A stretch of 37,048 nt of DNA from Mycobacterium sp. (lineage in GTDB: Bacteria > Actinomycetota > Actinomycetes > Mycobacteriales > Mycobacteriaceae): NCBI GenBank assembly GCA_011620645.1, contig WOYS01000011.1:1-37048 (forward strand). The letters run 5' to 3'. This document shows, in pieces, positions 15,083 to 27,319 of the stretch. Every line of letters starts with the position of its first letter. The stretch's first letter is position 1. Below the pieces are notes generated by a model. That model did not search any database, was not told the origin of the DNA, and was given only the letters and a program-made list of their open reading frames with translations. A program made the translations under genes and the position numbers.

Positions 15083-15173
15083 GGCTTTTCCTCTGCATTC
15101 GTTGGCCGCCGGGTCGCCCGAGCCCAGACCTGGGAATTTTCGAGCGTGAACCGGAACCGAGGGTCGACGCTGA

Positions 15174-24157: not shown

Positions 24158-24233
24158 GCCCCCGTAGCTCAGGGGATAGAGCGTCTGCCTCCGGAGCAGA
24201 AGGCCGCAGGTTCGATTCCTGCCGGGGGCACCA
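24158..24233 (+). tRNA. tRNA-Arg (anticodon CCG)
   Basis: A 76-base cloverleaf can be drawn by eye. The acceptor GCCCCCG (24158-24164) pairs with CGGGGGC (24223-24229), then comes discriminator A and an encoded CCA. The anticodon stem TCTGC/GCAGA (24184-24188 and 24196-24200) encloses the loop CTCCGGA with anticodon CCG at 24191-24193, which reads CGG. The T-arm GCAGG-TTCGATT-CCTGC is perfect. It reads away from argS, the synthetase that charges it. Confidence 0.98.
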
Positions 24234-25808: not shown

Positions 25809-26285
25809 TCAGGTAGGTGCGTGGCCTCGGGCCGATTCCTGGCCCAGGTAGTCACTGGCCAGCGCGGCGACGTGATCGGGCAATGACCCGGCGGCCACGT
25901 CGGCGAGGCTGGTCTCCTCCAGCACCGAACGCATGCTGGCCCGTAGCGCCCGCCAGACATCGGTCAGCGATGCCGTCGGACCCGAGTACGGCAGGTCGCC
26001 CAAGCCGATATCGCGGACGCTGGCCAACGGCCCGTCGATGCACCGCAACACATCGGCGATACTGATATCGGCGGCTGGGCGCGCCAACTCGTAACCACCG
26101 TCGCGCCCGCGGTGACTGCGCACCAGCCGGTCGCTGCGCAGATCCGAGAGAATATCGACCAGGAACTGAGCCGGAATGCCCTGCGCCTTGGCCAGATCAT
26201 CGGTTTTCACCAGTTCACCGTTGGCGACGGTGGCCAGCTGAATCATGGCGCGGACGGCGTACTCCGCCTTCGCCGACATCCGCAT
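25809..26285 (-). CDS. Rrf2-family transcriptional regulator
   Basis: DNA-binding regulator of 158 residues. The winged helix is at the N-terminus ([68 protein letters not shown]). It has one cysteine only (LRCIDG) and lacks the three-cysteine cluster of IscR, NsrR and RsrR, so an iron-sulfur sensor is unlikely. It resembles Rv1287, also next to cysDN in M. tuberculosis. The cysteine-metabolism regulator CymR of Firmicutes is also a cluster-free Rrf2 protein, so a sulfur role is a reasonable inference. The start is ATG 26285, with a second ATG two codons on. No strong ribosome binding site is seen. Confidence 0.9.
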
Positions 26286-26298
26286 ACCGCGAATTCTG

Positions 26299-26331
26299 CC
26301 ATTGTGAGCCCGGGCCATTGTCTGAGCCCGG
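26299..26331. repeat. Imperfect direct repeat upstream of rrf2
   Basis: CCATTGTGAGCCCGG (26299-26313) is followed after one base by CCATTGTCTGAGCCCGG (26315-26331), the same sequence with two added bases. It lies 14 to 46 bases upstream of the rrf2 start codon, where an autoregulatory operator would be expected. Binding by the Rrf2 protein is only a suggestion. Confidence 0.6.
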
Positions 26332-26429
26332 CTCACCTCAGCGGCGGTGCGATGTAGGCAGCGGCACCGCTTCCGAGCAGAGCACCATTCCCCTTGGTCA
26401 CACTGGTATCGGCGTTGACGAGCACATGA

Positions 26430-26502
26430 CGTTCTGGAATGTAGTACTACCTGCAGTACTGCATTTCCCGCGGTACTGCAGGTAGTACTACCTTCCAGAA
26501 CG
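26430..26502. repeat. 73-bp nested inverted repeat between cysQ and rrf2
   Basis: The left arm (26430-26459, starting CGTTCTGGAA and ending CAGTAC) and right arm (26473-26502) are 30 bases each and complementary except for one position (T at 26440 against the G-type position of the other arm). They enclose a 13-base loop. The arms contain smaller perfect palindromes, such as AGGTAGTACTACCT in the right arm and GTAGTACTAC in the left. There is no T-tract on either side, so it is not a typical terminator. It could be a very stable RNA hairpin, a cruciform, an operator array or a remnant of a small mobile element. Confidence 0.95.
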
Positions 26503-26569
26503 CGTTGTTCCCCAGCTGGCGGAGTCCGGTGTGACAGGTGGGACCGATGATCTCGCAGCGTGGGCCACG

Positions 26570-27319
26570 CTAGTGCACCTTGGTGACCGCCAGCACCGCG
26601 TCGGCCAATTCGGGACGGCACACGATCAGGTCGGGGAGCAGCACGTTGTCCTGGTTGTAGATCAGCGGCGAGCCGTCGATGCGGGAGGTGAACAGACCTG
26701 CGGCGCGGGCGACGGCCACCGGGGCTGCCGAGTCCCATTCGTACTGGCCGCCGGCATGCACATAGACATCGGAGACACCCTGCACCACCGAGGCGACTTT
26801 CGCTCCCGCCGAACCCATTTCGACCAGGGTCCCACCCAGCGCATCCCGCACTGCGAGTGCGACCGCGGGCGGCCTGGTCCTCGACACCACGACACGAGGC
26901 GCGCCCCGGGCCGCCGGGGGTGCCACCACGGTCGGCGTGGCCAGGGTGACACCCCGCGCCGGTAACGCGACCGCCCCGACGACCAGCTCACCCTGCTGCC
27001 ACAGCGCGACATGCACGGCCCAGTCCGCGCGGCCGAGCTCGGAGAACTCGCGGGTGCCGTCCAAGGGGTCGATGATCCACACCCGCTCGGCAGACAATCG
27101 AGCCTTGTCGGCCCGCTCGGTCTCGGACGCCTCTTCGGAGAGCACCGCGTCAACCGGCCGGTACTGCGCCAGCGCGGCCATCAGGAATTCGTGGGACCGC
27201 TTGTCCCCCGCTGCTTTCCGGTCAGCTGGCGCGGCATCGGCGAACTCGGTGCGCACACCGAGCAGCAGCTCGCCGGCCTCGGTGGCCAATCGGGCGGCCA
27301 GTTCGTGGTCATCACTCAT
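26570..27319 (-). CDS. cysQ: 3'(2'),5'-bisphosphate nucleotidase CysQ (inositol monophosphatase family)
   Basis: Expected to remove the 3' phosphate from PAP (and PAPS), the by-product of sulfate activation and sulfotransfer. The 249 residues carry the metal-dependent phosphatase signatures: the acidic [34 protein letters not shown] and the C-terminal [16 protein letters not shown]. It is close in sequence to M. tuberculosis CysQ (Rv2131c, from memory), which lies elsewhere in that genome. It follows cysNC after 31 bases on the same strand, so it is likely part of the cysD operon. Other members act on inositol phosphate or fructose bisphosphate; the cys context favours PAP. Confidence 0.88.

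Follow-up and report, generated by a model that had tools for sequence, protein, structure and literature searches.

A near-perfect palindrome between two co-directional genes

Why does a Mycobacterium genome carry a long, almost fully self-complementary sequence between a gene for a CysQ-type phosphatase and a gene for an Rrf2-family regulator? The window, as we call the whole 37,048-nucleotide stretch of DNA analyzed here, holds this palindrome at 26430–26502 (no strand is assigned to it or to the boxes and outer repeat described below). Its 30-base arms, at 26430–26459 and 26473–26502, are complementary at 29 of 30 positions around a 13-base loop, with the lone mismatch at 26440. An earlier sequence-only reading had described this 73-bp geometry and the perfect palindromes within the arms, and both descriptions proved exact. 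With a score of 28, against 12.5 for the runner-up, the palindrome ranked first among the window’s inverted repeats and stood far above chance, at nearly twice the best score from 20 dinucleotide-shuffled windows (range 9.5 to 14.5). On the minus strand, 26370–26560 folded with z=−8.5, which none of 200 shuffles equaled. An outer imperfect inverted repeat (26379–26553) surrounds it, with 84-base arms that are 70% complementary and GTCACACTGG and CCGGTGTGAC near the ends.

Both neighboring genes lie on the minus strand. The CysQ-type gene (26570–27319) had CysQ as its best NCBIfam match at 104.9 bits, far below the cut-off of 228.8 bits, and the palindrome lies 67 bases past it. The rrf2 gene (25809–26285; Pfam Rrf2, E 3.5e-34) starts 144 bases beyond the palindrome at the start codon that we chose. 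As the earlier reading had remarked, there is no T-run: no terminator-like site with one, and hence no canonical intrinsic terminator, was called on either strand in 26200–26700. An Rfam scan of the window gave no family at gathering score for the palindrome; its only matches were an actinobacterial L31 ribosomal-protein leader and a tRNA, reported at 15104–15160 and 24158–24230, respectively.

A dispersed family in one Mycobacterium clade

Within the window the palindrome stands alone, as had been noted from the sequence: a covariance model built from four palindromes of the same genome (R1) matched this one place and no second copy at E≤1. The idea of a unique palindrome was nevertheless rejected, since related copies occur elsewhere in the genome and in relatives. 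The window’s own genome comprises 3.98 Mb in 128 contigs; a BLAST search of it returned three related palindromes, and R1 had matches in 12 of 248 genus genomes at E≤0.01. A second covariance model from 19 copies (R2) matched 20 of 396 genus genomes at E≤0.001, the other 376 being without a match, and two of 246 genomes across the phylum, namely the window’s own and one with a weak match. The full-length R2 match to the window copy (C84) covers 97 positions at 26419–26515 with no strand assigned (90.9 bits, E 7e-27; 82.9 bits on the minus strand), this copy being among the sequences in R2’s own alignment. The element is about 95 bp long, with a consensus of about 45 bp per arm.

The best R2 match reached 72–94 bits in eight of the 20 genomes and at most 47.4 bits in the remaining 12. 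A tree built on CysQ, Icd2, and MenC of 31 genomes grouped the eight as a clade with support 1.0 among those 31. Together they hold at least 37 copies, 3–9 each: six in the window’s own genome (G000), nine in G341, five in G377, four plus one weak in G202, and three apiece in G145, G211, G224, and G412. All these counts are lower bounds, as 150 candidates were scored per genome out of 807–1311; weak model matches (for example, L032, L033, and L041) were left out, and a copy present at two contig ends, C1 and C128, was counted once. Those two contigs of G000 (L053, L054) carry the same copy with 320 identical bases around it, so the assembly probably duplicates the stretch. At the end of another contig, C27, a tandem repeat resembling ACGCAGCCGGAGACA abuts one element copy (positions 1–55 of L004 and L048). 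Searching the arms in the genome and its relatives, the check that the earlier reading had suggested, also uncovered sites without the element. Given the dispersed copies, “REP-like,” as it had put it, is correct as a description of the family.

Among the 12 genomes with lower scores are diverged relatives of the GTATCACCGGCAGTATC type, which we call group B (for example, in G087, G133, G111, G359, and G035); in G087, G152, and G165, group B also stands beside the menC 3′ end. The element had no match in phage and plasmid collections, nor did 2 kb of the window in plasmids, and an origin from phages or plasmids was rejected on these absent matches. Pattern searches of viral contigs returned 6, 0, and 52 stretches, in which the models found no good-scoring full-length element; the best matches were L021 with R1 (30.1 bits) and L412 with R2 (32.5 bits, over part of the model). 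Five viral stretches were inspected directly (L021, L363, L384, L390, and L412). On the AT-rich contig of L021, positions 804–1010 hold a run of GTAGTACTAC-like palindromes whose spacing and flanks are unlike those of the mycobacterial element, and L412 has at 2122–2156 two back-to-back GTACTACCGGTAGTAC units, resembling the element’s two arms minus the loop.

Copies favor convergent gene ends

We fetched the 37 copies with their flanks and called genes crudely from reading frame and codon GC; by these calls the classed copies are intergenic. Sixteen of 20 scanned proteins were assigned to a Pfam family, and Icd2, MenC, UvrA, XthA, and YchF passed their NCBIfam cut-offs. Twenty-six of the 31 copies that were classed lie between convergent genes and five between co-directional genes, the latter being the window copy and C45 of the same genome, G341 g and i, and G202c. 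Six were left unclassed (C27 of the window’s genome, G341e, G412a, G224b, G224c, and G145c); in two of them, G341e and G224c, the facing gene survives as a fragment, and the next intact gene is co-directional with cysQ. Against a background of 58 convergent pairs among 315 adjacent gene pairs (15 of 90 for gaps of 60–400 bp) in a 400-kb sample of G341 only, the convergent excess is large. It has p=5e-15 by copy, where copies sharing a site are non-independent, and p=4e-7 by distinct site (12 of 15, of which two ychF-side sites may be one).

Such a position would also suit a plain two-way intrinsic terminator, or a hairpin protecting 3′ ends, that has no proper U-run and in which RNA folding alone matters, so that likeness between copies reflects common descent. 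The earlier reading had listed an RNA 3′-end hairpin, and the location of most copies at gene 3′ ends fits that part of its proposal. The very stable fold points the same way, as do a short TTT that tends to come after the outer boxes on both strands and the unrelated hairpins, described below, that some of these junctions hold in other genomes. Long stems in the G341 sample are likewise found in six of 15 convergent gaps of 60–400 bp, one of them a copy of the present family, versus one of 26 divergent and five of 49 co-directional gaps. One survey describes stem-loops as preferring convergent gaps in all bacteria studied (PMC1590033). Against a plain hairpin stands the lack of a U-tract, and the box sequences described below weigh further on this reading.

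Gene context also bears on an operator array for the neighboring Rrf2 regulator, which the earlier reading had offered as a candidate. In its favor, the element lies 144 bases upstream of rrf2 in the window, and two other cysQ-site copies, G341e and G224c, have an rrf2 gene past the element at distances of about 1.5 and 2 kb. These are three of the 37 copies, each viewed with 3–4 kb of sequence; rrf2 adjoins the element in the window copy only (one of 37) and is absent from the 3–4 kb around the remaining 34. We further searched with R2 the 80 named loci of CysQ relatives, the best 80 of 541: rrf2 is within reach of cysQ in 28 of them and the element is at the cysQ end in none, the three matches at E≤1 (in L231 and L197) all being away from that end. 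One of these loci, from Mycobacterium sp. MBM, is that of clade genome G145, with a cysQ locus identical over 3729 bp. Linkage between element and regulator is thus not seen across genomes, and an Rrf2 operator array is scarcely credible.

Several species carry copies at the same junctions

Reading the neighbor genes assigned several copies to junctions common to more than one species. The cysQ junction and the icd2 junction each hold copies in the window’s own genome, G202, G377, G341, and G224; the hicB|menC junction in the window’s own genome, G211, G145, G377, and G412; and the junction of an unnamed gene pair in the window’s own genome, G341, G377, G412, G202, and G145. The amidohydrolase|D-alanyl-D-alanine carboxypeptidase junction is occupied in the window’s own genome and G341, and the uvrA junction in G377 and G202. 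Because the same junctions are occupied in several clade species, the recent origin that the earlier reading had entertained is unsupported. That reading had also set dispersed copies with empty sites, as a sign of mobility, against conservation at one locus, as a sign of regulation; we found dispersed copies with empty sites, but also the same junctions in use across species.

Sites do lose or lack the element. G224 holds copies at three of the nine G341 sites; at the other six, which are without an intact copy, it has a truncated remnant (site h), an unrelated hairpin (g and i), neither of these (a), or other sequence in lengths of about 1 and 1.7 kb (c and f). Of 20 stretches fetched, six contain these sites, and in those six R2 matched only the remnant (E 4.2). 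The menC 3′ end of G202 (L296), compared by eye with G377, looks deletion-like, with the hairpin gone and part of one arm left. Unrelated long hairpins also occupy the element-free icd2 junction in G412, G211, and, by eye, G145; outside the clade, 19 of 22 genomes scored under 13 for a hairpin there. No long hairpin was found at the element-free G341 site a in G224 or at the cysQ junctions of G211, G145, and G412.

Turnover of this kind weighs on the reading of the element as a chromosome-organization or segregation site, where one protein would bind a handful of copies on each chromosome and convergent gaps are tolerated because little else is there. The 3–9 copies per genome suit such a site, as do the strict boxes and near-fixed spacing of the inner pair. 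Number and sites differ between sister species, though, with six of nine G341 sites lacking an intact copy in G224, which makes this role very unlikely.

REP, BIME, and ERIC repeats are short, dispersed, imperfect palindromes in intergenic DNA. The element’s dispersed, palindromic, intergenic copies are those of a REP-, ERIC-, or MITE-type repeat. It may be asked whether it is a mobile repeat of REP or MITE type that no longer moves and is without host function at most sites. The common consensus of about 45 bp per arm, the diverged relative in other genomes, and the end motifs like terminal repeats in some copies are in keeping with this. So is the mean likeness between copies, as distant same-site copies are barely more alike than different-site copies: 0.660 for the same site in different species (n=39), and 0.631 for different sites in different genomes (n=481). 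For the same reason, descent from a single insertion is supported by sequence for close pairs only (likeness up to 0.96), and repeated arrival at shared junctions is possible for distant species. The low copy number and the likeness of 0.652 between different sites of one genome, little above the between-genome value, speak against the mobile-repeat reading. Within one genome the highest likeness between copies was 0.774, with no near-identical group, and recent amplification within genomes is unsupported. Ends resembling terminal inverted repeats were seen by eye in a few copies; by eye, too, no target-site duplication was noticed, a reading that we do not count as evidence. Constraint in place, which past transposition could not have produced, is the further objection: taken with the former points, it makes a functionless mobile repeat unlikely.

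Four GTAC boxes are conserved in place

Each copy contains four boxes of the form GYRGTACYRC. In the window they are GTAGTACTAC at 26441–26450 (GTAC at 26444), GCAGTACTGC at 26453–26462 (GTAC at 26456), GCGGTACTGC at 26470–26479 (GTAC at 26473), and again GTAGTACTAC at 26482–26491 (GTAC at 26485). All four GTACs are intact in 27 of 37 copies, with the 12 bp between boxes of an arm fixed in the search. The distance between the inner boxes is 17 in 26 copies, 16 in five, 18 in four, and 15 in two, and so 16–18 in 35 of 37. Across the 136 boxes of 34 copies (the irregular G377e, G202e, and G224b left out), the GTAC letters occur 135, 136, 136, and 130 times. The two flanking letters on each side vary almost entirely by transition (T86/C49, A96/G40, T107/C28, and A83/G52; 169 transitions vs 3 transversions).

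We then compared copies at the same site. Over eight pairs from close species, substitutions numbered 2 of 128 in GTAC, 24 of 192 in the box flanks, 89 of 438 in the rest of the element, and 573 of 3402 in the surroundings, coding sequence included (GTAC vs rest of the element, p=6e-9; in two of the pairs the surroundings are partly unrelated, and some copies belong to two pairs). Both GTAC changes fall in the degenerate pair G377e/G202e. Four pairs of the window’s own genome with another gave 0 of 64, 26 of 96, 107 of 218, and 453 of 1702, respectively. As same-site likeness is weak overall, the argument for constraint in place rests on the close pairs.

Pairing between the arms does not by itself account for this pattern. 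Arm-to-arm complementarity at the flanking letters was 173 of 272, within the range of shuffles of arms between copies (167.1, sd 6.5; 201 of 1000 reach 173). Complementarity within boxes was 135, below the shuffled 154.3 (sd 6.0), as if perfectly palindromic boxes were avoided. RNAalifold on 19 sequences showed two-sided change in seven of 18 pairs, and covariation as proof of an RNA hairpin was rejected, since pairing at the variable letters stays within the shuffle range. Within elements, mismatches tend to be wobble pairs on one strand (P=0.024, with related copies counted), a hint that RNA pairing is under some constraint. The near constancy of GTAC in close pairs, together with arms that do not covary, makes it seem that selection acts in place and on box sequence more than on pairing. 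Selection for pairing, which the earlier reading had inferred from the single mismatch, is then at most part of the answer, as the GTAC boxes are constrained while flanking-letter pairing is not above the shuffles.

The same evidence bears on the readings set out above. Near-invariant GTAC amid changing arms and neighbors is unexplained by pairing alone, and the variable letters of the arms show no covariation, so a plain hairpin is a possible but doubtful account. Likewise, “REP/MITE-like” suits the dispersal and leaves the constraint in place uncovered.

Ascertainment bias was considered as a cause of the GTAC invariance and set aside, the six G341 sites in G224 holding no full-length decayed element; some may remain, because the finding models and the alignment script favor GTAC. 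We also scanned 15 genomes for box pairs with up to two mismatches. Among the matches listed, which exclude the window’s own genome, perfect pairs lay solely inside elements, one-mismatch pairs occurred elsewhere at G341:C1:4360853 and G224:C1:5593468, and two-mismatch pairs were scattered; a reversed control pattern outnumbered the box-pair pattern in every genome. Among those matches there was no perfect pair outside elements that could, as a promoter operator, have indicated a cognate regulator. A BlaI-type motif was considered as a lead to the protein that would bind the boxes and was dropped; a literature search on it gave nothing usable.

A candidate two-way transcription-end element

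The copies are dispersed, prefer convergent genes, occupy junctions common to several species, and conserve GTAC at the same site. With about even confidence, we propose from these sequence patterns that this dispersed dyad, present in few copies per genome within one Mycobacterium clade, is a two-way transcription-end element, in which a putative protein reads the DNA boxes and the hairpin is a co-signal. Four GTAC boxes kept near letter-perfect at facing gene ends, amid drifting DNA, suggest that, for transcription coming from both sides, the element probably marks the end or acts as a block. The strict boxes, flanks that change nearly by transition only, and near-fixed inner spacing fit recognition by a protein as DNA; a role in ending transcription in both directions agrees with the position at gene ends and with the unrelated hairpins that certain of these junctions hold in sister species. 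A putative protein of the clade would bind the four boxes as DNA, recognizing GTAC by direct and the flexible Y-R steps by indirect readout, and, once bound, would stop polymerase arriving from either gene. In the transcript, the hairpin would help to end or protect the message. Five co-directional copies, the window copy included, and several element-free junctions without a long hairpin count against the two-way role.

At the window junction, the gene facing cysQ would have been lost, as a mycothiol-S-transferase gene faces cysQ in three relatives (G202, G377, and G412, the last without the element there) and a fragment persists in two. The element is now located between cysQ and rrf2, where its effect would be to terminate the cysQ transcript or to insulate rrf2.

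A narrower form of the proposed two-way element is a chromosomal stoperator-like system, in which a putative DNA-binding protein of the clade sits on four GYRGTACYRC boxes, arranged as a fixed dyad, and stops polymerases that converge at a small number of gene ends. The element does have sequence-specific boxes under constraint; this form is tentative, and we consider it rather doubtful. The stoperators of mycobacteriophages (PMC9283540) are asymmetric sites in phage DNA to which the immunity repressor binds. They have in common with the element dispersed sequence-specific sites and the idea of stopping elongation, whereas the element is a chromosomal dyad whose binder is putative here.

Relation to known repeats and terminators

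Like REP, BIME, and ERIC repeats, the element consists of dispersed intergenic palindromes; it differs in the 3–9 copies found per genome, in junctions common to species, and in four GTAC boxes conserved in place. Among mycobacterial stem-loops, the Myt-1 family of M. tuberculosis has length 72 and 75 members, as we read its table row in PMC2267715; both are repeated stem-loops, a comparison by description and not by sequence.

“I-shaped” terminators are non-canonical mycobacterial terminators. The element’s stem differs from non-canonical terminators in its strict sequence signature, common to unrelated loci. Both are hairpins at gene ends without a U-tract, and PMC10937400 reports no conserved motif 3′ of the hairpin at 121 M. 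tuberculosis termination sites. It also reports few strong canonical terminators in M. tuberculosis, so how converging mycobacterial genes end is a question that matters. A family with constant sequence, and not fold alone, at convergent ends offers natural sites at which to separate hairpin termination from a protein roadblock. Our literature searches found no description of a GTAC-box element, and the 10-mer GTAGTACTAC led to no mycobacterial paper by title among the matches listed.

Two further observations concern sequences around and beside the family. Motifs of the form GTCACACYGG and CCACACCTGTCACACCAG flank the hairpin core at a distance of about 50 nt in copies C84 and C36 of the window’s genome and in some group-B copies (L052; L068, L069, L074, L079, and L088), and letters similar to the ends of the outer repeat were seen by eye near some group-B copies; judged by eye, the recurrence looks as if a longer ancestral element had carried terminal repeats. 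Gene ends also hold other long hairpins that have no long U-run, at icd2 3′ ends (L267, L265, L263, and L279), at about 9482–9587 of L342, and at about 17005 of L325; such hairpins (for example, CTACGGTTTGTGG... and CAGCCTCGATGGGG...) may be additional repeat families.
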